Origin: Bacillota bacterium
GTDB taxonomy: Bacteria > Bacillota > UBA4882 > UBA8346
DNA: 51,811 nt
Direction of reading: 5' to 3'
Assembly: GCA_012728785.1 (NCBI GenBank)
Contig: JAAYEK010000256.1
Span: 1-51,811, forward strand
Below are positions 13,220 to 25,566 of the stretch, in pieces. Both the position numbers and the translations under genes were made by a program. The first letter of the stretch is position 1. Each line of letters starts with the position of its first letter. The notes beneath the pieces were generated by a model. It had not been told where the DNA came from, made no database searches, and saw only the letters and a program-made list of their open reading frames with translations.

Positions 13220-15103
13220 TCAAAACTTGCTATTGGCAATCTTATCGACTGGAACCGGCAAAATAATTCCTTGACCCGTTTCAATCTTAGTATGGTCTTT
13301 AATATTATTAATTTCCATTAAAACTTCGACAGTTGTCCCATAACGTTTAGCAATCCGCCAAAGGGTCTCTTTGGGCTTAATCTCATAGAAATGATTCTTG
13401 GGTATGGGAAGCGCCAGCTCGAAGCCTGCAGCTATCTTTTCCGTGTCTGATTTTAGTTTATTCTCAGCTAAAATATTTTCTTTGGTGATCCCGAATTTTT
13501 TAGCAAGACCACTAATAGTCTCTCCTGTTTTCACTTTTACTTTCACCTTAACAGAATCAACCGCTTTAGACGCTGTCGGTTTGGACTCTGGCGGTATTGC
13601 TTCCATAGGGGTTGAATCGACTGTACCAGGTAGTTTGGAAAGGTCAGGTAACATTTTTTCTTCAACCGGGATCTCTTTATCAACCGGTTCCGTTTGAAGC
13701 GGCCCATCGACGGGTTTCGGTTTAACAGTTTCCTTTAGACTTGTAGACTCAGTTTGAGAAGTGTTTTCTAAGGTCGCGTTTTCATTAATTGGTTTTTCGT
13801 TGGTATCCTCCTGGACTGTAGAAGTGCTAATAACTGGAGCTCTTGGTTCAGTCTCCACCGGTGTTTTAGGGATTTCCATTTCTGTTGAGGGCTTTTTACC
13901 CACCGTATGAACACTGGCATTATCAATCCCTTCATTCTTCAGGCGAATGATTTTAGGAGTCACAAAAATCACTACTTCCGTATGTTCTCTGGTATCTTTT
14001 TTGTTCCCAAAAAGTCGCCCAATTAATGGTACTCTAGCTAGCCCTGGTAATCCGGAATTACTGGATGTATTAGACTCACTATGTAAACCGGATAAGACGA
14101 AGGTCTCCCCTTCACGCAACCTCACCACCGAGCTTGCTTCCCTGGTTCGAATCACCGGCACATCGTCGCCTTCTCCGGTTTTTCTCCAATCTACGATCGT
14201 ACTGACTTCAGCTTTAATCGAAACAGTCACAATATCATCTTCATTAATCCGCGGGGTCACTGTCAACTTAGTTCCAACTTCAAGATAAGTAACAATATAT
14301 TCGATCCCCGTAGATGAACGATTTGTTGTAATAATGGGAAATTTATCACCAATTAATATCTTCCCTTCTTGGCTATCGGTAATTGAAATATTAGGGTTGG
14401 CTAATAGGCGGGCCTTATTGGTTGCTTCCAAAGCGCTGAGTGTCGCCATAGTAGTTAATTTAAAGTTGGCCGTCGAGGAGATCTTGTTAAACTCCCAGTT
14501 CAACCCCAATTCCTTACTTCCGCCTTCGGTTAACTCCTCCATTCGCGCTTCAATATTCAACTGGGGCATCTCCCGATCAAGCCTGACTACGATCTCTTCG
14601 ATATTTTGATGTTCCAAGATACTGGCTTTGATCGTAAGTTGGTTGGTCCGGGTATCAACTCCAATCTTATCCTCGGCGATAATTATTTTTAAGGCATTCT
14701 TCACCTGTTCCGGCGAAGCATATCTTAGGTGATAAAGTTTTGTCTCCCTGCTCTCAAAATTGCTAAAAGTTTTCTCGTTGCCGATAATAACTGTCCTGGT
14801 CTGAGTGATCCACCGGAAGGAATAACCGTATGTCTGAGTCAACAACTCAATCGCTTCTTTAATCGACAGTCCGTGTTTGAGTTTGATGGATACATCTCCC
14901 TTGACTTGAGGGTCCATTAAAATATTGATCCCGCCCAACTCGGCCAGAGAACGGAATACGTCTCGAATATCGGCGTCGAATACTTCGAAGTTGGAGATAA
15001 TTTCGGTTTTCACTCCCGCTAAAACCGGATGGGAGCAAAAAAAGATCATCACCATTAACGTCAAAAACAATGGGGCTGCTATGAGTTTATTTCGTTTACC
15101 CAT
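13220..15103 (-). CDS. pilQ: Type IV pilus secretin PilQ with two C-terminal LysM domains
   Basis: Forms the outer-membrane pore for the pilus. The 627 residues hold a signal peptide (about 1-29), an STN/N0-type domain (FEVFDADIRDVFRSLAELGG, about 37-100), an N1 domain (about 118-185), and the secretin beta-domain (about 200-410) with RTREASSVVRLREGETFVLSGL and the signature PGLARVPLIGRLFGNK. After a Pro/Thr/Glu-rich linker (about 420-515) come two LysM domains (about 520-567 and 571-618; TGETISGLAKKFGIT and KETLWRIAKRYGTT). LysM binds peptidoglycan glycan; proteobacterial PilQ instead anchors by N-terminal AMIN domains, which are absent here. Start ATG overlaps the preceding stop by one base; last gene of the pilMNOPQ run. 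Confidence 0.93.
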   Translation of the reverse strand: MGKRNKLIAAPLFLTLMVMIFFCSHPVLAGVKTEIISNFEVFDADIRDVFRSLAELGGINILMDPQVKGDVSIKLKHGLSIKEAIELLTQTYGYSFRWITQTRTVIIGNEKTFSNFESRETKLYHLRYASPEQVKNALKIIIAEDKIGVDTRTNQLTIKASILEHQNIEEIVVRLDREMPQLNIEARMEELTEGGSKELGLNWEFNKISSTANFKLTTMATLSALEATNKARLLANPNISITDSQEGKILIGDKFPIITTNRSSTGIEYIVTYLEVGTKLTVTPRINEDDIVTVSIKAEVSTIVDWRKTGEGDDVPVIRTREASSVVRLREGETFVLSGLHSESNTSSNSGLPGLARVPLIGRLFGNKKDTREHTEVVIFVTPKIIRLKNEGIDNASVHTVGKKPSTEMEIPKTPVETEPRAPVISTSTVQEDTNEKPINENATLENTSQTESTSLKETVKPKPVDGPLQTEPVDKEIPVEEKMLPDLSKLPGTVDSTPMEAIPPESKPTASKAVDSVKVKVKVKTGETISGLAKKFGITKENILAENKLKSDTEKIAAGFELALPIPKNHFYEIKPKETLWRIAKRYGTTVEVLMEINNIKDHTKIETGQGIILPVPVDKIANSKF

Positions 15104-15708
15104 TATTTGGCCCTCTCTTTCTTATCCAGTTTCACACGGCCTTTCGGGGTGATTAAAATGACCGAGTCATTGTTAATTTCTCCCACCCGGTATTTGGTCC
15201 CCGGTAAAATCTCCCCCAGTTTCAATAGATAGGATTTATTTTGATATCTAACGATGATTACCTGACTATTTTCTGTTCCTAAGATCCCTTTTAAAACCGG
15301 TTTTTCCGGGTTCTCATCCGGTTTAGCGATTGGTAACAGTCCTTGATCAGGCCTTATCAGCTGCAGGTCATCCCTGACCGGTTGATTTGGAGGAACAGTC
15401 GGCCTTGTAGTTTGATCTTTGCGCCTCCGGGCTGCTATTATTGAAGGAGGCGGTAAAAAAAGATCCCTCTTTGAAATTGGGCCCGTGCCCATTTTTAAGC
15501 TTGGTGTTGTTAATTGATCTTCAGTATACTTGTCGTTAATATTGCCGGTTAACGGCGGGACAGCTGTTGCCGGGCTAGTTGGGCTGATAGGAGCCGGTTT
15601 AGGTTGCATAAAAAAACTCCAATATAAAGCCCCCCCTAAGGCAAACAGCAAGACAACCAATAAACCCGGCCTAACTGCCGGTTGCTTTTCCTGGGAATTT
15701 CCGCTCAT
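15103..15708 (-). CDS. PilP/GspC-like inner-membrane pilus alignment protein
   Basis: A 201-residue bitopic protein: cytoplasmic tail, one membrane helix (GLLVVLLFALGGALYWSFF, about 15-33), a long Pro/Thr-rich periplasmic spacer (about 35-125), and a small C-terminal beta domain (about 135-198: VLKGILG, VIIVRYQNKSYLLKLGEIL, VGEINNDSVILI) that matches the homology-region fold shared by PilP and GspC, which contacts the secretin. It sits exactly where pilP is expected, between pilO (4-base overlap) and pilQ (1-base overlap). Unlike proteobacterial PilP it is not a lipoprotein but has a membrane helix, as GspC does. Name inferred from fold and place. Confidence 0.75.
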   Translation of the reverse strand: MSGNSQEKQPAVRPGLLVVLLFALGGALYWSFFMQPKPAPISPTSPATAVPPLTGNINDKYTEDQLTTPSLKMGTGPISKRDLFLPPPSIIAARRRKDQTTRPTVPPNQPVRDDLQLIRPDQGLLPIAKPDENPEKPVLKGILGTENSQVIIVRYQNKSYLLKLGEILPGTKYRVGEINNDSVILITPKGRVKLDKKERAK

Positions 15709-16283
15709 GGGTTCACCTTCCCTTGTTCCACGGGAGCGATCAAGTCTAATATTAATTGAGTATTTAGCTCATAGGCTTTCCTACTCTCAGAATCGGGTTC
15801 GGAAGCATTTATGTTTAGACCTGAAACCATCATAAACCGCTTCGATTCAAGTATGGACTCTAGAAACCTTTTAATACCGTGATACTCCCCGTTTAATTCC
15901 ACCGCCCATTGATATACTTGATAATTCGGCAAACCTCTGAAATTCTTTACTTGATCGTCTATTTTACAGAAGATAATGTCCACCTTACAATTCCGGGCGA
16001 TTCGTTCCAGTTCCAAAACAAAAGCTGCTTGTTCCTCCCGGCTGGGAGCAAACCGTTGCAACCGATAAATTTCCGCGATTCCGGTTTTGCTTTGTTCTCT
16101 CAACAGCGGTAGTGTCGCTACTTTTTGTTTCATTTGCAACAACTCGGATTCACGCTGATTTATTTTTTGTTTCAATTCGTTATTTTTCAATAAATAATGG
16201 ACCCCTCCGGCAATGATTCCACCGGAGATCAAAATGATCAATATAATAAAAATTATGGTTGAAAGATTATTTTTTTTCGTCAT
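15705..16283 (-). CDS. pilO: Type IV pilus inner-membrane assembly protein PilO
   Basis: A 192-residue bitopic protein with an N-terminal membrane helix (IIFIILIILISGGIIAGGVH, about 10-29), a coiled coil (about 34-70) and a ferredoxin-like domain containing FVLELERIARNCKVDI and the PilO-typical YHGIKRFLESILESKRFM (about 133-151). It forms a heterodimer with PilN and links PilM to PilP and the secretin. The gene overlaps pilN by 17 bases and pilP by 4, with only a weak ribosome binding site, so translation is probably coupled. Confidence 0.88.
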   Translation of the reverse strand: MTKKNNLSTIIFIILIILISGGIIAGGVHYLLKNNELKQKINQRESELLQMKQKVATLPLLREQSKTGIAEIYRLQRFAPSREEQAAFVLELERIARNCKVDIIFCKIDDQVKNFRGLPNYQVYQWAVELNGEYHGIKRFLESILESKRFMMVSGLNINASEPDSESRKAYELNTQLILDLIAPVEQGKVNP

Positions 16284-16830
16284 ATTCCAGGGAACCCCTC
16301 CCGGTTACCATTTCCAGATTAAATTGATAACTGGTAAAATCGTTGTCTTCTTCCTTTTTAATCTCTTTCAATGAGGTGCTTTGATAATATTCACCAATAT
16401 TAATTTGATTTAAAAAATTACCAATCGAAGGTATATTTAACGACTGACCGGTGACTACTACCTTCCCGGTATGGTCGATTATCAGCTCTTCCAACCAAAT
16501 ATTTCCCGGCATAATTCTAGCTAAACTATTAAAAATTTCAAGTTGCGGTTGGTAAAACCCTCTTATTTGTTCTATTTCCCGCTGTAATTTGATCAACTCT
16601 GCCTGGGTCTGTTCCAATCTTCGTACCTCATCCATTTGCGGTTGAAGAAACGTAATTTGTTGATCAATGGAAGCCAATTTTCGGGTTGACTCTTGATAGT
16701 TAAAGTACTCAAAAACCCCGAATCCGGCTGAACCAAGGAGTAAAATTACCCCCCCGAATAAAATCATCAAATTTAATAAAGTAACTTGCTGTTTAGGCCG
16801 AAATTCTAGTGGTAATAGATTAATTCTCAC
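16267..16830 (-). CDS. pilN: Type IV pilus inner-membrane assembly protein PilN
   Basis: A 187-residue protein. The cytoplasmic N-terminus RINLLPLEFRPK is the conserved PilN peptide that docks in the PilM groove. It is followed by a membrane helix (about 20-42), a coiled coil (about 50-95), and a C-terminal domain with IWLEELIIDHTGKVVVTGQS typical of the Fimbrial_PilN family. Start is GTG at 16830, with GGAGGTGATC nine bases upstream; it overlaps the pilM stop by four bases. Works with PilM, PilO and the PilP-like protein as the alignment complex. Confidence 0.92.
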   Translation of the reverse strand: MRINLLPLEFRPKQQVTLLNLMILFGGVILLLGSAGFGVFEYFNYQESTRKLASIDQQITFLQPQMDEVRRLEQTQAELIKLQREIEQIRGFYQPQLEIFNSLARIMPGNIWLEELIIDHTGKVVVTGQSLNIPSIGNFLNQINIGEYYQSTSLKEIKKEEDNDFTSYQFNLEMVTGRGSLEYDEKK

Positions 16831-17882
16831 TCCGGGATCACCTCCCGCATCGCTAGACCCAAAGCCACACTATAAAGTGGCAGTTCCTCTTCAATTATGA
16901 GCCGCAGCTTTTTAGGCACAATAATCTTCTGCAAAACGCTTCCCTCAAGAACAGGAATTCCTAATTCCCGGTTGAGAAAAATCGCCAAATTAGTTAATAG
17001 GGAACCACCGCCGTTAATGATCAGGCGGTTCACTTCTTCGTTCCTTTCTTGTAAATTAAAATAATCAAAAGAGCGTCTGATTTCCAAAGCTAATTCCTTC
17101 AACCCTTCTTGCATGGCAAAATTAGCTTTCGATTCTAGACTCTGACTAATAGAATCGCTTTCACTCAAAGCATTAATCTTATTTAGCTTTATATCTTCCG
17201 CTTCTTCTACGGCAATTCCGAGATTAGTGGCAACCGTGGTAGTGAACCTATTTCCCGCCAAAGGGATCACTCTAGTAAATAAAGGAATCCCATCTTTTAA
17301 GATCATCAAATCGGAAGTTTCGAATCCAATATCCAAAAGCGCTACTGCACCTTCGGTATTAGCGTTTTCTAAACCCGCCGCCCGCATCAGGCTAAAAGTC
17401 TGAATATCCACCGCAGCAGTTTGGAACCCCTGATCTCTAAGGGTTTCCACATGGCTATAAATAATATCATTTCGGGCGCAAACCATTAGGACATCCATTT
17501 CATTTTGGTCCGGATACCGTCTAATGACTTTAAAATCAAGGGTCACTTCATCTACTGGAAAGGGAATGTAACGTTCTGCCTCCCAATGAATGGCGTTAGC
17601 TACCTCTTCATCTTCCATCATTGGCATTTTAATATGTCTAATTATCGCTGCTTGCCCGGGAATAGCGATTGTTACCCGTTTGGAAGAAATCCGATTTTTA
17701 GCGAACAGTTCCTTAATGGCTTTCCCGACTTGTTCCCGTTCTTTAATTTCACCGGCGTCTAACGCGCCTGCAGGTATCATGATTTTCCCAAAACGGATCA
17801 ACCGGGGTTTTAAACCGCCCTGCAATTCCAGAACTTTAATTGAATTAGCGCCGATGTCCAAACCGACTCCGACTTTAGCCAT
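16827..17882 (-). CDS. pilM: Type IV pilus actin-like ATPase PilM
   Basis: A 351-residue cytoplasmic protein with an actin/FtsA-type fold: the phosphate-1 loop VGLDIGANSIKVLEL (about 5-19), the conserved WEAERYIPFPVDEV (about 104-117), ALLDIGFETSDLMIL (phosphate 2, about 181-195), and the adenosine motif NGGGSLL (about 290-296). PilM recruits PilN's N-terminus and contacts the PilB motor. ATG with GAGGAG nine bases upstream. A gap of about 225 bases separates it from pilD, so an internal promoter for pilMNOPQ is possible. Confidence 0.93.
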   Translation of the reverse strand: MAKVGVGLDIGANSIKVLELQGGLKPRLIRFGKIMIPAGALDAGEIKEREQVGKAIKELFAKNRISSKRVTIAIPGQAAIIRHIKMPMMEDEEVANAIHWEAERYIPFPVDEVTLDFKVIRRYPDQNEMDVLMVCARNDIIYSHVETLRDQGFQTAAVDIQTFSLMRAAGLENANTEGAVALLDIGFETSDLMILKDGIPLFTRVIPLAGNRFTTTVATNLGIAVEEAEDIKLNKINALSESDSISQSLESKANFAMQEGLKELALEIRRSFDYFNLQERNEEVNRLIINGGGSLLTNLAIFLNRELGIPVLEGSVLQKIIVPKKLRLIIEEELPLYSVALGLAMREVIPE

Positions 17883-18107: not shown

Positions 18108-18854
18108 TCACAACCCATACAATCCGTATATCTTAAAAACAATCTCTTCCCAATAAAGCGCAATTAGACTTCCAACCACTAAAAAAGGCCCGAATGGAAA
18201 AGCTGTTTTTCGATCGATCTTCCTCAAAAGCATCAACGGAGCAATCACCAGCACTCCCAAAAAACTTCCGCTAAACAACACAAACAATGCCCTCTCCCAA
18301 CCTAAAAAAACCCCGGCCATCGCCAGAAACTTCACATCCCCCATACCCATTCCTTTTGGGTAAAAGAAAGTAATCGCCAGTAATATTCCGCCGCCGATTA
18401 GTCCACCTAAGATCCCGGCTATCATCTCCCCTTGCCAGATTCGAAACAGCAAACCAATCACAATCATCGGCAAGGTCAAAACATTGGGGATTAACCGGTG
18501 GTCCAAATCAATAAAGGCAATCACAATCAAGGCGTAAGTCAAGACTAAGGCCATCGCTCCGTCAACAGTTAAACCAAACCGTATCCAACAAAGTACGGTA
18601 AATACCGCTGTAATTAACTCCACCAGCGGATATCTCCAACTGATGGGAGTTTTACAGTAACGGCAGCGCCCCCTAAGCCAAATATAGCTCAAGACCGGAA
18701 AAAGGTCGAAAACCCCCAGCCGGTGATTGCAGTTTGGACAATGGGAGGGGGGGAGAACGATTGACTCCCCCCGAGGGATACGATAGATAAGTACGTTTAG
18801 AAAACTGCCGATTATTAATCCGAGCAATATTAATACTAAATAAAAACTAAACAT
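18108..18854 (-). CDS. pilD: Prepilin peptidase / N-methyltransferase PilD
   Basis: An A24-family aspartic protease that cleaves prepilin leaders and methylates the new N-terminus. The 248 residues include the methyltransferase region with two zinc-type Cys pairs, CPNC (about 39-42) and CRYC (about 64-67), NVLIYRIPRGE near the N-terminus, and the catalytic aspartates in DLDHRLIPN (about 117-125) and GMGDVK (about 172-177). About seven membrane segments. It lies 21 bases after pilA and would process PilA and the minor pilins at 6867-9310. Confidence 0.95.
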   Translation of the reverse strand: MFSFYLVLILLGLIIGSFLNVLIYRIPRGESIVLPPSHCPNCNHRLGVFDLFPVLSYIWLRGRCRYCKTPISWRYPLVELITAVFTVLCWIRFGLTVDGAMALVLTYALIVIAFIDLDHRLIPNVLTLPMIVIGLLFRIWQGEMIAGILGGLIGGGILLAITFFYPKGMGMGDVKFLAMAGVFLGWERALFVLFSGSFLGVLVIAPLMLLRKIDRKTAFPFGPFLVVGSLIALYWEEIVFKIYGLYGL

Positions 18855-18874: not shown

Positions 18875-19243
18875 TTAATCATGAAGACCACCAACATTTA
18901 AACAGTTAGCAGTTATTTCACCAGCGGCTCCAATAACAATAGCATAATCCATTGTTCCCGTACTCGGACAGTTAGGAAGTGTTTGCATCGCTGAAAAACC
19001 ACCTGGCATCGGAAGAATTAGATCACCGATAGCAGGTGGAGCTCCTCCGGTTGTAACACGAAAAAGCTCGCTTGCCGCCTCTATCGTGCCCCGGTTCGCT
19101 AAACATGTTTGAGTGAAAGAGGTTCGGCGCGCAGCCATCAGATTTGGTATCGCCAATGCAGCAATAATCCCGATGATTAATACAACGATCAAAATCTCGA
19201 TTAATGTAAAGCCGCTTTCATTTTTAGCTATTTTCATCATCAT
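18875..19243 (-). CDS. pilA: Major type IV pilin PilA
   Basis: A 122-residue prepilin. Leader MMMKIAKNESG, cleavage before FTLIEILIVVLIIGIIAALA with Glu at +5, then a short globular domain with three cysteines (TCLAN, LPNCPS, ANCLN), two of which could form the pilin disulfide. It ends at GGLHD. The small size is like pilins of Geobacter and Bacillota. Three successive ATGs follow GGAGGTGAA; the second or third has the best spacing. Sitting between pilC and pilD, it is the only pilin gene in the core locus and so the likely main subunit. Confidence 0.9.
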   Translation of the reverse strand: MMMKIAKNESGFTLIEILIVVLIIGIIAALAIPNLMAARRTSFTQTCLANRGTIEAASELFRVTTGGAPPAIGDLILPMPGGFSAMQTLPNCPSTGTMDYAIVIGAAGEITANCLNVGGLHD

Positions 19244-19276: not shown

Positions 19277-20494
19277 TCATTTTACTCCCGTACTAAGTGA
19301 GAACATAGGAATCATCACCGCTGATACAACCATGGCGACAACTCCCCCTAAGCAAACCATAATCGCCGGTTCTATCAATTTGGTCAGGGACTCAATGGCA
19401 TAACCCGCTTCTTTTTCATAAAAGTCGGCCACCTGATTGAGCATGGTTGATAATTCTCCAGTCTCTTCCCCCACCGCAATCATCTGAGTGACCATTGGTG
19501 GAAATACTTTCTTTTCCGCCAAAGGTTTGGCCAGCCCTGTCCCTTGGGTAATATTAACCCTTGCTTTACTAATGGCATCGGCTACTACTGTATTTCCTAC
19601 TGCTCGTTCTACCATTTCTAGGCTAAGGGTGATCATTAAACCACTCTCTAATAGAGTAGCTAAAGTCCGGCTAAAACGAGCTGAAGCCAACTTTTGAATC
19701 ACCGGTCCGACAACTTTTATATTAAAGAGCAATTTATCAATTTTTCTTCTCCCGGATGGGGTATCATAATAAAATTTTACTCCTAAAACCATTCCCACCA
19801 AAACCGCCAGAATCAAATACCAATACTTTACGAACATATCGCTGGTAGCCATTAATAATAAAGTAACACCCGGTAATTTCATATTGGCCCCACGAAACAT
19901 ATCTAGAAAATTTGGCAACACAAAAGTCATCAGTCCAAATATTACCCCAATCGCCACTACTACAACCATTGCCGGATAAGTCATCGCTCCAGTGACTTTC
20001 TTTTTCAGCTCAAACTCCCGCTCCAAATGCTCTACCAATCTAAAAAGGACCGTCTCCAACTGACCGCTGGCTTCCCCCGCTTCCACCATGTGAATATAGA
20101 TGGTCGGGAAGATCTTCGGGTATTTGGCCATCGCCCCATGGAGGGTCTCGCCCCCCTCAACATTCCGCCGGATCTGATGGATCACCGACGCAAAGTAAGG
20201 GTTCTCCGTCTGTTGGGTCATTAAATTAAGACATGAGGCCAGATTCACCCCGGCCCGGATCATTACCCCGAACTGACGGGTAAAGATTAGCAATTCCCGG
20301 AGTTGCACTTTTTTCTGAAATATCTTGCTTTGCTTCTCCGCCCCAGACTTAGCCTCACCTTTGGGCTGTAACGAGGTGATATAATACCCCTCTTCCCGGA
20401 GCTTCAAAGCAGCTTCCCTGATCCCGGGAGCATCCATATACCCTTTTAAAGCCTGTCCCTTCTTATCCCGGATACTATATTCAAAAGAAGGCAT
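19277..20494 (-). CDS. pilC: Type IV pilus inner-membrane platform protein PilC
   Basis: A 405-residue GspF/PilC-family polytopic protein with two repeated T2SSF domains (about 70-192 and 272-394) and about three membrane helices (near 170, 220 and 375). Typical motifs are TRQFGVMIRAGVNL (about 74-87), GEASGQLETVL (about 136-146), and in the second repeat ARFSRTLATLLESGLMI and AVGEETGELSTML. It couples the PilB and PilT motors to pilin insertion. ATG with AAGGAG nine bases upstream. Length is normal. Confidence 0.94.
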   Translation of the reverse strand: MPSFEYSIRDKKGQALKGYMDAPGIREAALKLREEGYYITSLQPKGEAKSGAEKQSKIFQKKVQLRELLIFTRQFGVMIRAGVNLASCLNLMTQQTENPYFASVIHQIRRNVEGGETLHGAMAKYPKIFPTIYIHMVEAGEASGQLETVLFRLVEHLEREFELKKKVTGAMTYPAMVVVVAIGVIFGLMTFVLPNFLDMFRGANMKLPGVTLLLMATSDMFVKYWYLILAVLVGMVLGVKFYYDTPSGRRKIDKLLFNIKVVGPVIQKLASARFSRTLATLLESGLMITLSLEMVERAVGNTVVADAISKARVNITQGTGLAKPLAEKKVFPPMVTQMIAVGEETGELSTMLNQVADFYEKEAGYAIESLTKLIEPAIMVCLGGVVAMVVSAVMIPMFSLSTGVK

Positions 20495-20774: not shown

Positions 20775-21839
20775 TTAAAACATCATCTCCGCAAATCGCT
20801 TAAACTCTTCCTGATCGGAAGCCCGCATCATCGCTTCTTGTAAGCTAATCAATCTCCGTTGATATAACGCTTTCAACGAAGCGTCCAAAGTCTGCATCCC
20901 CAGCTTGCCTCCGGTCTGGAGGGCGCTGGGGAGCTGATATGTTTTACCTTCACGAATCAAGTTGCGCACCGCCCCGTTGGCGACTAAGATTTCCGTGGCC
21001 AAAACCCGTCCCGGTTGATTGAATTTGGGGATCAACTGTTGGGCCACGATGCCTTGCAATGTCACCGATAGTTGCATCCGTACCTGTTGTTGCTGGTGCG
21101 GCGGAAAAACGTCGATGATCCGGTCCACCGTCTGAGTGGTATCATTCGTATGCAAAGTCGCAAATACCAAATGCCCGGTCTCAGCTGCGGTCAAAGCGGT
21201 TTGAATGGTTTCCAGGTCCCGCATCTCACCGACTAGGATCACATCCGGGTCCTCCCGAAGGGCCGCCCGGAGAGCGCCGGAAAAGGAATCAGTATCGGCC
21301 CCGACCTCCCGTTGGTTAATAATGCTTTTTTTATGTTTATGTAAAAACTCGATCGGATCTTCTAACGTAATAATATGGCAACTCCGGTTGGTATTGATTA
21401 AGTCGATTAAAGCCGCCAAAGTAGTGGTTTTCCCGCTACCTGTCGGCCCGGTCATTAACACCAAGCCTCTGGATTTTTCTGCAAAGGACTTGACCACTTC
21501 CGGGATTCCTAAAATAGAAAGGTCCGGAATCTGGGTGGGAATCAACCGCATTACCCCGGATATGGCTCCCCGTTGCCTGAAAAGATTCACCCGAAAACGT
21601 CCTATGTTTTGTATTCCGTAAGAAAAGTCAACCTGCCCTTTATCGTCCAAGGTTTTTTGATGAGAGTCATCCAACATCGGGGCCACCAATTCCCGAATCG
21701 CGCTATTATTCAATTCCATCGCTCCCGAAATCGGGATCAATTCGCCGTATACCCTCAACATCGGAGGACGTCCGACCGTCAAATGCAAGTCGGAAGCCTT
21801 TTGATTCACCGCAGTAGTAAGCAGATCATTAATGCTCAA
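20775..21839 (-). CDS. pilT: Type IV pilus retraction ATPase PilT
   Basis: A 354-residue hexameric motor that depolymerises the pilus for twitching motility. Visible are ASDLHLTVGRPP (about 15-26), Walker A GPTGSGKTTT (about 129-138), the Asp box, Walker B REDPDVILVGEMRD (about 190-203) and His box ETGHLVFATLHTNDTT (about 216-231). The C-terminal region with AVRNLIREGKTYQLPSAL is standard. Start is TTG at 21839 with GGGAGG eight bases upstream. It follows pilB by about 100 bases. Confidence 0.95.
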   Translation of the reverse strand: MSINDLLTTAVNQKASDLHLTVGRPPMLRVYGELIPISGAMELNNSAIRELVAPMLDDSHQKTLDDKGQVDFSYGIQNIGRFRVNLFRQRGAISGVMRLIPTQIPDLSILGIPEVVKSFAEKSRGLVLMTGPTGSGKTTTLAALIDLINTNRSCHIITLEDPIEFLHKHKKSIINQREVGADTDSFSGALRAALREDPDVILVGEMRDLETIQTALTAAETGHLVFATLHTNDTTQTVDRIIDVFPPHQQQQVRMQLSVTLQGIVAQQLIPKFNQPGRVLATEILVANGAVRNLIREGKTYQLPSALQTGGKLGMQTLDASLKALYQRRLISLQEAMMRASDQEEFKRFAEMMF

Positions 21840-21941: not shown

Positions 21942-23654
21942 CTACTCATTCACATATGCCGCTCTTACAATCTCCTCCAAAGTTGTCTTCCCCTCCAACG
22001 CTTTCAAAAGTCCATCCTGGAAAAGAGTCCGCATCCCGTTTTTAACGGCCAATTCTTTAATTTCTCCGGCCGGAACGTTTTGACTGATTAAAACCCTTAG
22101 TTCCTGATTCACCAACAAAACTTCGTGGATGGCCAAACGTTTTGAATATCCTTTTCCGCTGCAACGTCGGCATCCCTCACCCTTATAAAATACCAACTTC
22201 TCGGGGGGCGTATCCGGTAGGTTCTTTCTGACGATATCGTAATAAATATGATCTTCCGCTAAGTTATAAGCCTGTTTACAATCGGGACAAACTCCCCTTA
22301 CCAGCCTTTGGGCCAAAATCCCGATGACCGTCGATGCCGCCAGGAAGGGTTCGATCTTCATATCGATCAGCCTGGTGATACTACTAGGCGCATCGTTCGT
22401 GTGTAAGGTCGACAATACCAAGTGGCCGGTGAGCGCCGCCTGGGTGGCGATCTGGGCGGTTTCACCGTCCCGGATCTCTCCGACCATGATGATATCCGGA
22501 TCTTGCCGGAGAAAGGACCGGAGGGCCATGGCAAAGGTCAAACCCGCTTTATTATTCACTTGGACCTGGTTAATTCCATGAATTTGATATTCCACCGGGT
22601 CCTCGACGGTCATGATGTTTTCTTCGGGTGAATTCAACTCATTCAGGACCGAGCTAAGGGTCGTCGATTTACCGCTTCCAGTAGGACCGGTCACCAGAAT
22701 AATTCCGTGAGGCTGTTTATACACTGAACGGAATCGTTCCAGAGTATCCGGGAGAAATCCCAAACTCTCCATCTTGGCGAGGACATTATTTTTAAACAAA
22801 ATCCGCATAACCACTTTTTCGCCAAACACAATCGGAATGCAGGAAACCCGCAAGTCAATCGGTACCCCTTCGACCCGCATCTGAATCCGGCCATCCTGGG
22901 GCAGCCTCTTCTCAGCGATATTCATCCCGGAGATAATCTTAATCCGGGAGATAATCGCCGCCTGGGTGTTTTTAGGTGAAGTCATGATCTTTTTCAGCTT
23001 ACCGTCAACCCGGTAGCGGATTACCAGTTCCCGTTCGGTCGGCTCCAGATGAATATCACTGGCCTTTTCCTTAACAGCTTGGGTGATTAGTAAATTCACC
23101 AGCCGGACGATGGGGGCATCCTCGACCATCGCCTCCAAGTCTCCGACGCCCTGGTCTTCCTCCTTTTCTTCCTCGATCTGGACATCAAGATCTTTAAAAA
23201 CTTCTTGTACCGAACCGGAGATCCCGAAATATTGGCTAAAAGCCTGGTTCATATCATCTTCGGTAACAATCACCGGTTGTATTTCATAATTTAGGGTAAG
23301 CCTCAATTCATCTAAGGCATAGACATTGGTTGGGTCCAACATTGCTAATACCAGCCGTTTACCATTCTTCTCAACAGGAAAGACATGATATTTTTTAGCA
23401 ATATGCTCCGGTACCAAGGCTAAAATATCCGGGTCAATTTTATATTTAGAAAGAATTACATGGGGAATCCCCAATTGAAATTCAAGAGTCTCGATGAGAC
23501 GTTGCTCACTGATGAACCCCATTTTAACTAAAATCGACCCTAGACGTTCTTTAGTCTTACTCTGTTCTACTAGGGCCTCTTCCAACTGTTCAACGGTGAT
23601 CTGCCCCGTTTGTACTAAAAGGTCGCCAAATTTTTGTTTGAATACCGATGCCAA
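21942..23654 (-). CDS. pilB: Type IV pilus extension ATPase PilB
   Basis: A 570-residue GspE/PilB motor that powers pilus assembly. N-terminal MshEN/GSPII_E_N domain (about 4-145: KFGDLLVQTGQITVEQLEEAL), then the ATPase core with Walker A GPTGSGKST (about 321-329), Walker B RQDPDIIMVGEIRD, His box TGHLVLSTLHTNDAPS, and the Cys4 zinc site CPDC (about 460) with CRRC (about 500). The MshEN fold can bind c-di-GMP in some homologues. I prefer TTG at 23654, eight bases after GGAGG, over ATG at 23687, which has no ribosome binding site. Expression is probably controlled by the promoter and hairpins at 23745-23895. Confidence 0.93.
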   Translation of the reverse strand: MASVFKQKFGDLLVQTGQITVEQLEEALVEQSKTKERLGSILVKMGFISEQRLIETLEFQLGIPHVILSKYKIDPDILALVPEHIAKKYHVFPVEKNGKRLVLAMLDPTNVYALDELRLTLNYEIQPVIVTEDDMNQAFSQYFGISGSVQEVFKDLDVQIEEEKEEDQGVGDLEAMVEDAPIVRLVNLLITQAVKEKASDIHLEPTERELVIRYRVDGKLKKIMTSPKNTQAAIISRIKIISGMNIAEKRLPQDGRIQMRVEGVPIDLRVSCIPIVFGEKVVMRILFKNNVLAKMESLGFLPDTLERFRSVYKQPHGIILVTGPTGSGKSTTLSSVLNELNSPEENIMTVEDPVEYQIHGINQVQVNNKAGLTFAMALRSFLRQDPDIIMVGEIRDGETAQIATQAALTGHLVLSTLHTNDAPSSITRLIDMKIEPFLAASTVIGILAQRLVRGVCPDCKQAYNLAEDHIYYDIVRKNLPDTPPEKLVFYKGEGCRRCSGKGYSKRLAIHEVLLVNQELRVLISQNVPAGEIKELAVKNGMRTLFQDGLLKALEGKTTLEEIVRAAYVNE

Positions 23655-23744
23655 ATAAAGATCCTCCGATTTTATTTTAACCATCATTTTTGTATCTTTT
23701 TGTCAAAACAAATTAAAATTTATCAAAATCAATCAATCCTGGAT

Positions 23745-23779
23745 ATAAAAACCGCCGAATACATCCTATTCGCCGGTTT
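23745..23779 (-). terminator. Terminator between rnj and pilB
   Basis: On the minus strand AAACCGGCGAATA and TATTCGGCGGTTT pair over 13 positions with one mismatch, with a five-base loop, followed by TTTTTAT. Confidence 0.85.
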
Positions 23780-23860
23780 CACTACTTACTCCGTTGGATT
23801 CAAGTGACCAGATGTAAATCCAACTTCATCGTTTCGTCATATTTTAGCATTTCTGCACTT
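23745..23860 (-). ncRNA. Putative attenuator or small RNA upstream of pilB
   Basis: A transcript of about 116 bases is predicted between a consensus promoter and a strong terminator, ending about 90 bases before the pilB start codon. It holds one hairpin with arms GTTGGATT and AATCCAAC (23824-23817 and 23800-23793; 16-base loop) and then the terminator. It contains a nine-codon frame (MKLDLHLVT) without a ribosome binding site. The order promoter, structured RNA, terminator, gene is that of a riboswitch or attenuator, but it does not match the c-di-GMP-I or -II, THF, fluoride, T-box or other cores I know. It could also be an independent small RNA. Confidence 0.5.
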
Positions 23861-23866
23861 AACTCG

Positions 23867-23895
23867 ATTATAACTTATTGGTAACAATATGTCAA
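23867..23895 (-). promoter_or_regulatory. Perfect consensus sigma-A promoter upstream of pilB
   Basis: On the minus strand TTGACA (23895-23890), 17 bases, TATAAT (23872-23867). It starts 16 bases after the RNase J stop codon; transcription would begin near 23860. Confidence 0.85.
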
Positions 23896-23910: not shown

Positions 23911-25566
23911 CTAAATCTCAATAATCACCGGAATTATCATTGGGGTCCGTTTGGTTTTCTGATATAAATATTCTTTAATAGCATCCTTAATCAGTTTCTT
24001 TTTGGAAGACCAGTTCTTCCCTTCGCCTTTTAGAACCGCCTTCTTACTGATCTGCTTCACTCCGTCCATCAGTTCATCCGATTCCCGGACATAAATGAAA
24101 CCTCTGGAAATTACATCCGGATCATTAGCCAAACTACCCGTTTCCTTTTGAATAGTGACAATAATAATGATCATTCCGTCCTCGGACAAATGTTTTCTGT
24201 CCCTAAGAACAATATTTCCAACATCGCCGACACCCAGACCGTCTACTAAAACTTTACCCGAGGCCACCCGGCCATTTTTACGCGCTCCCTGATTGTCAAT
24301 TTCTAGCGCTTCTCCGATATCCATGATGAAAATGTTTTCCTTCTCCATCCCGAGGCTTTGAGCCAAGTTGGCATGTTGTTTCAGATGCCTGTATTCACCG
24401 TGGGCCGGAATAAAATATTTGGGTCTAACCAGTTTGTGGATTAACTTCAATTCTTCCTGGCAGGCATGGCCGGAAACATGAATGTCATTCCATGATTCAT
24501 AAATAACATTAGCGCCTTTCTTAAACAACTCGTTAATAACTCCGGAGATGGTCTTCTCGTTTCCCGGAATCGGGCTTGCCGAAATCACTACCAAATCTCC
24601 CTCGACAATTTCAATCTGCCGGTGTTCGCCGCCGGCCATCCTAGCCAAGGCAGACATAGGTTCTCCCTGACTTCCGGTAGTGATAATCACCAGATTTTCT
24701 GCCTGGTATTTTTTGATTTGATCAATATCAATCAAAACACCTTCCGGTACAGTCAAATAACCTAACTCGATCGCCTTTCTACTAACATTTACCATGCTCC
24801 GGCCACAGATCGCCACTTTCCGATGGTATTTTATCGCCGCGTCAATCACTTGTTGGACCCGGTGAATATTCGAAGCAAAAGTGGCCACTAAAATACGGCC
24901 CCCGACATCAGCGAAGATCTCGTCAAAAGCAGCGCCCACTGTCCGTTCAGACATGGTATACCCTTTGCGTTCAACATTGGTGCTATCGCAAAGCATCAGT
25001 AAGACGCCTTTTTTCCCAAGTTCGGCGAAACGCGGCAAATCAATTGTCTCACCTACAATCGGAGTATAATCAATTTTAAAATCCGAGGTGTGAACTATAA
25101 CCCCAACCGGTGTTTCAATAGCGACAGCCACTGCATCGGCGATACTATGGGTTGACCTAATAAACTCAACTTTAAAAGCCCCCAATTGGACCGACTGGCC
25201 TTGGGACACTTTTTCCAGTTGGCATTTGGATAAGATCCCGTGTTCTTCCAGTTTATATTCGATTAGTCCCAGGGAAAGTCTGGTCCCGTAAACCGGAACA
25301 TTCACTTCTTTCAATACATAAGGCAGCGCCCCAATATGGTCCTCATGCCCATGGGTTATAATAATTCCCCTGACTTTAGCCAAATTTTTCACCAGATAGG
25401 TAGTGTCCGGTAAAACCAGATCGACTCCCAACATTTGCTCTTCCGGAAAGGCCATCCCACAATCAACTACAATAATGTCTTCCCCATATTCGAAGACCGT
25501 TATGTTCTTCCCAATCTCTCCCATACCGCCTAATGGGATAATTCTCAATTTCTTATTACGCTTCAT
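23911..25566 (-). CDS. rnj: Ribonuclease J
   Basis: A 551-residue metallo-beta-lactamase/beta-CASP ribonuclease with 5'-3' exo- and endonuclease activity in mRNA decay and rRNA maturation. Visible: GGMGEIGKN (about 12-20), metal motif HGHEDHIGALPY (about 73-84), STHSIADA, SDFKIDY, the beta-CASP region with CDSTN and ATFASNIHRVQQ, SGHACQEE and the conserved PAHGEYRH (about 386-393), and a C-terminal dimer domain. Length is normal for RNase J1/J2. The second ATG (25566) is six bases after AGGAG; the first overlaps the site. It follows the ABC ATPase by about 30 bases and may be cotranscribed. Confidence 0.95.
   Translation of the reverse strand: MKRNKKLRIIPLGGMGEIGKNITVFEYGEDIIVVDCGMAFPEEQMLGVDLVLPDTTYLVKNLAKVRGIIITHGHEDHIGALPYVLKEVNVPVYGTRLSLGLIEYKLEEHGILSKCQLEKVSQGQSVQLGAFKVEFIRSTHSIADAVAVAIETPVGVIVHTSDFKIDYTPIVGETIDLPRFAELGKKGVLLMLCDSTNVERKGYTMSERTVGAAFDEIFADVGGRILVATFASNIHRVQQVIDAAIKYHRKVAICGRSMVNVSRKAIELGYLTVPEGVLIDIDQIKKYQAENLVIITTGSQGEPMSALARMAGGEHRQIEIVEGDLVVISASPIPGNEKTISGVINELFKKGANVIYESWNDIHVSGHACQEELKLIHKLVRPKYFIPAHGEYRHLKQHANLAQSLGMEKENIFIMDIGEALEIDNQGARKNGRVASGKVLVDGLGVGDVGNIVLRDRKHLSEDGMIIIIVTIQKETGSLANDPDVISRGFIYVRESDELMDGVKQISKKAVLKGEGKNWSSKKKLIKDAIKEYLYQKTKRTPMIIPVIIEI

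Follow-up and report, generated by a model that had tools for sequence, protein, structure and literature searches.

The leader of a type IV pilus operon in the 51,811-nucleotide stretch of Bacillota DNA analysed here (the window) contains a class II c-di-GMP riboswitch that very probably acts as a transcriptional ON switch of the operon. Judged by its sequence, the leader RNA is an ordinary member of the known family RF01786. An earlier note on this DNA had suggested a new attenuator or small RNA without any core familiar to its author. The riboswitch-type attenuator before the pilus genes stands; the novelty does not, since the match to a known Rfam family that the note had named as counting against it was found (RF01786, 59.0 bits).

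The pilus operon and its leader

The leader element is located on the minus strand between rnj, which encodes RNase J (end at 23911; RNase_J domains), and pilB. Its promoter, TTGACA-17-TATAAT (23867..23895, minus strand), has the -35 element at 23895-23890 and the -10 element at 23872-23867. The earlier note had described this promoter as perfect, and it does match the consensus at 12 of 12 positions. No other sigma-70 match in the 10 kb between 20 and 30 kb reaches 12/12 with a spacer of 17 nt, and TTGACA-17-TATAAT is present at the equivalent position in the same-genus relative. The predicted leader RNA runs from approximately 23860 to 23746 on the minus strand. Its length of approximately 115 nt agrees with the 116 bases first predicted, and the 90 bases between its end and pilB are also correct, provided that pilB starts at the TTG at 23654.

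The first gene, pilB (21942..23654, minus strand), encodes the extension ATPase with an N-terminal MshEN domain (Pfam T2SSE 462 bits, MshEN 75 bits; matches to MshE and PilB in the PDB). A probable ribosome-binding site, GGAGG (23663..23667, minus strand), recognized by sequence, is 8 nt upstream of the TTG. In the sole same-genus relative, pilB starts with LATAFKQKFG at the equivalent TTG, which is likewise preceded by a G-rich stretch resembling GGAGG. The alternative ATG at 23687, which would give a longer protein, was dropped in favor of the TTG, having no Shine-Dalgarno sequence and not being conserved in the relative.

The operon has the order pilB-pilT-pilC-pilin-pilD-pilM and continues to a secretin, all on the minus strand. 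It includes the retraction ATPase gene pilT (20775..21839; Pfam T2SSE, tblastn with relatives), the inner-membrane platform gene pilC (19277..20494; Pfam T2SSF), a type IV pilin gene (18875..19243; Pfam N_methyl) and the prepilin peptidase gene pilD (18108..18854), assigned by sequence and position from its ORF and the order conserved in relatives. The rest of the cluster (13220..17882) is made up of pilM/N/O/P-like genes, recognized as ORFs, and the gene for the secretin PilQ (13220-15103; secretin Pfam 151 bits). PilQ also carries two C-terminal LysM domains. The presence of a secretin points to an outer membrane, as in the diderm Bacillota.

A c-di-GMP-II aptamer in the leader

The whole window was scanned against 4227 Rfam families at the gathering threshold, and exactly one RNA scored above it: the c-di-GMP-II riboswitch aptamer, RF01786, at 23762..23844 on the minus strand. 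The alignment spans the full model (1-84), with 59.0 bits against a curated gathering score of 53.5. Because the E value is 1.2e-10 for the window against all 4227 families, the leader element is not a chance occurrence, and a new RNA family is ruled out by the match. The pseudoknot and the motifs GAUGA, UGG-CACUU and AACCGGC are conserved in the window aptamer. It differs from the consensus in its pseudoknot, which is UCAC/GUGA rather than GCAC/GUGC, a compensated change that is common in this class of genomes, and in having a weak P1. The eight-base-pair hairpin that had been noticed, GUUGGAUU/AAUCCAAC on the minus strand, is present and is the P2 of this aptamer.

Compensatory changes in relatives had been proposed as a check on the leader, and they are present. 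In 18 distinct aptamers, aligned free of gaps over the 66-nt core and scored on the Rfam structure with the pseudoknot, both sides have changed in 14 of 17 pairs. Standard pairs fill 94.8% of the pair cells, compared with 72.1% in shuffled alignments and 26-42% when the structure is slid. In P2 both sides have changed in all eight pairs, and 97.9% of cells are paired. The pseudoknot joins the P2 loop to the 3' strand by four pairs, which form in 100% of cells, with UA/GC and AU/GC exchanges, and here UCAC/GUGA covaries with GCAC/GUGC. The inner two pairs of P1 are paired in 97.2% of cells over the same set and are the only ones that are solid in the window copy, where the outer pairs are mostly non-standard in the Rfam alignment and only approximately 2 + 3 pairs can be seen by eye.

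Membership in RF01786 predicts c-di-GMP as the likely ligand, which was among the nucleotide second messengers suggested at the outset. The genome has 17 matches to the GGDEF domain, and therefore c-di-GMP is presumably made in this organism.

The terminator and the predicted direction of the switch

The intrinsic terminator hairpin (23748..23780, minus strand) is GAAACCGGCGAAUAGGAUGUAUUCGGCGGUUUU, read from 23780 to 23748 and then followed by U, with a U run at 23751-23747. It folds at -16.3 kcal/mol with 13 stem pairs in the MFE structure, in keeping with the 13-position terminator described before. Its 5' arm is inside the 3' end of the aptamer and shares the last 19 nt, which comprise the conserved AACCGGC stretch and the 3' strand of P1. 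The aptamer and the terminator are therefore mutually exclusive, and ligand-dependent read-through, an ON switch, is predicted. With this coupling and the RF01786 match, the riboswitch architecture proposed for the head of the operon is borne out. The arrangement is frequent in the family. A terminator of -7 kcal/mol or lower overlaps the aptamer at 73 of 99 RF01786 loci, a set that includes tandem aptamers and related genomes and is thus not one of independent cases, versus 25 of 385 control windows in downstream genes.

The bacterial second messenger c-di-GMP is the cell's "settle down" signal. In the mechanism that we propose, RNA polymerase would start at the consensus promoter and transcribe the aptamer. 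At low c-di-GMP, the final 19 nt of the aptamer (GAAACCGGCGAAUA...) would pair with UAUUCGGCGGUUUU to form the intrinsic terminator, and transcription would end approximately 90 nt short of pilB. At high c-di-GMP, the pseudoknotted aptamer would be locked by the ligand and the 5' arm withheld, so that the terminator would fail and pilB-pilT-pilC-pilin-pilD-pilM and the genes beyond would be transcribed. The pilus genes are thus most likely switched on at high c-di-GMP.

Might the same aptamer instead have OFF polarity, or act on translation rather than on termination? A fold of 181 nt does place the leader in alternative pairings, and C. difficile Cdi2_1 uses a self-splicing group I ribozyme and translation initiation (PMC11477304). 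However, the 5' arm of a strong terminator is common to the aptamer, so the ligand should oppose termination, and the GGAGG and TTG are some 80-90 nt past the terminator. The Rfam scan of the window gave no group I intron, and no anti-terminator was seen that the aptamer could release. We consider this reading very unlikely, and retain the transcriptional ON switch.

Conservation of the riboswitch

Matches to RF01786 were found in 30 of the 61 genomes in the set of relatives, which includes the window's own genome, and in 108 of 398 sampled genomes of the phylum, compared with none in 14 control genomes. A second copy is present in the window's own genome (G000:C164:10149-10231, 65.8 bits).

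These other aptamers bear on the suggestion that a peptide-sensing attenuator or a leader peptide, MKLDLHLVT, controls the operon. The frame is present in the window and in the same-genus copy, and the second aptamer of the genome encodes the similar MKLGLYLVT. The frame is made, however, of conserved aptamer nucleotides, the motifs GAUGA and UGGUCACUU, and so is a by-product of invariant parts of the RNA. It has no Shine-Dalgarno sequence, stops or changes break it in most other aptamers, and the changes are explained by base-pair covariation, not by codon conservation. The peptide was dropped as a signal and is exceedingly improbable.

The same-genus relative keeps the promoter, the aptamer, the terminator, the TTG start and the gene order pilB-pilT-pilC-pilin-pilD-pilM, with a PilB that is 89% identical. 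Type IV pilus operons are downstream of the aptamer at 10 of the 99 RF01786 loci examined. Eight of these ten have pilB as the leading gene, no more than 114 nt from the aptamer; two of the eight are the window's genome and its same-genus relative, and the remaining six are from other families. In Evansella clarkii the aptamer precedes the pilin gene inside the pil operon. This recurrence of aptamer and pilB in several families, with a full riboswitch aptamer co-directional with and directly before pilB, leaves scarcely any likelihood that the leader is a stand-alone small RNA of approximately 116 nt with targets elsewhere, even though it has its own promoter and terminator and terminated riboswitch RNAs are known to accumulate in some bacteria.

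The riboswitch is not a constant feature of the family. The orthologous pilB leaders of three sister genera (G002, G004 and G011) have no RF01786 match; for G005 (L177) the upstream sequence available for comparison was limited to approximately 130 nt. PilB is 61-73% identical in sister genera. The switch is therefore not essential to this pilB operon and has been gained or lost there within the family. The pilB leaders of G004 (L176) and G002 (L178) are long and have consensus-like promoters and no Rfam match, and L178 has a possible ACGATCT/AGATCGT-TTTTTT terminator upstream of pilB. Another form of leader control is possible at these two operons.

Other c-di-GMP riboswitch clusters

In the window's own genome (G000:C164, locus L032), the second c-di-GMP-II aptamer (8150-8232 of L032) is accompanied approximately 1.4 kb downstream by a c-di-GMP-I-GGC aptamer (6657-6739 of L032). 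The pair lies in a cluster of small secreted proteins, of 159 and 266 aa, for which no Pfam match was found. In most genomes of the same class that have an RF01786 match, the c-di-GMP-II aptamer is followed by a homologous cluster. This recurrence suggests a c-di-GMP-controlled surface structure without a Pfam family.

Aptamers also occur in groups. There are three tandem c-di-GMP-II aptamers within approximately 430 nt ahead of a single 166-aa ORF in G005 (G005:C245:2019-2446, L050), and tandem c-di-GMP-II pairs in G051, G235 and G211. In G044 (L034, 961-3635), c-di-GMP-II, c-di-GMP-I-GGC and c-di-GMP-I aptamers are found within 2.7 kb, the last two approximately 110 nt apart.

The MshEN domain of PilB

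The MshEN domain of PilB, a fold that binds c-di-GMP in other proteins, scores 75.2 bits in Pfam against a cut-off of 23.1, and PilB matches MshE (PDB 5htl) with E 3.3e-21. The published MshEN pattern has two 24-residue motifs 5 residues apart, with the contact residues RLG...G...L...L..Q (PMC5013675). The layout in the window PilB is the one described there for the MshE and PilB ATPases: two motifs, each of 24 residues, flank the 5-residue spacer in KFGDLLVQTGQITVEQLEEALVEQ-SKTKE-RLGSILVKMGFISEQRLIETLEFQ. Motif II fits the pattern exactly. Motif I departs from it, with R replaced by K and L by F (KFG for RLG) and with Q at a usually hydrophobic position. Binding of c-di-GMP by this domain is plausible from the sequence.

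Control by c-di-GMP may therefore be exerted at two levels with one ligand, through the riboswitch and through the MshEN domain of PilB, a combination already known from C. difficile (PMC9765702, PMC11656802). A more elaborate version, in which the riboswitch governs transcription, MshEN governs motor activity, and the weak P1 sets the threshold of the RNA above that of the protein and so separates synthesis from activation, is speculative and rather unlikely.

Comparison with C. difficile

Class II c-di-GMP riboswitches of C. difficile are ON switches (PMC11477304). The class II riboswitch Cdi-2-4, upstream of pilA1, permits transcription in the presence of c-di-GMP and leads to termination in its absence; some transcription reads through into the pilB operon (PMC6366702). 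This C. difficile operon was the only published case that emerged when the literature was searched for a c-di-GMP-II riboswitch immediately ahead of pilB.

The pilB-first examples from several families now join the C. difficile case, and through the present one the expression of type IV pili is linked to c-di-GMP in an uncultured lineage of putatively diderm Bacillota, a secretin being present. The finding completes the annotation and opens no new question. Cdi-2-4/pilA1 likewise has a class II riboswitch and a terminator at the head of a type IV pilus operon (Bordeleau et al. 2015, cited in PMC6366702). Unlike that system, the window operon has pilB first, the pilin gene fourth, and a secretin of the diderm type. 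The ON polarity reported for Cdi-2-4 is the one that we infer for the window. An MshEN domain is present in the C. difficile PilB as well (PMC9765702). The window element is a device of the Cdi-2-4 kind, here with pilB in first place.
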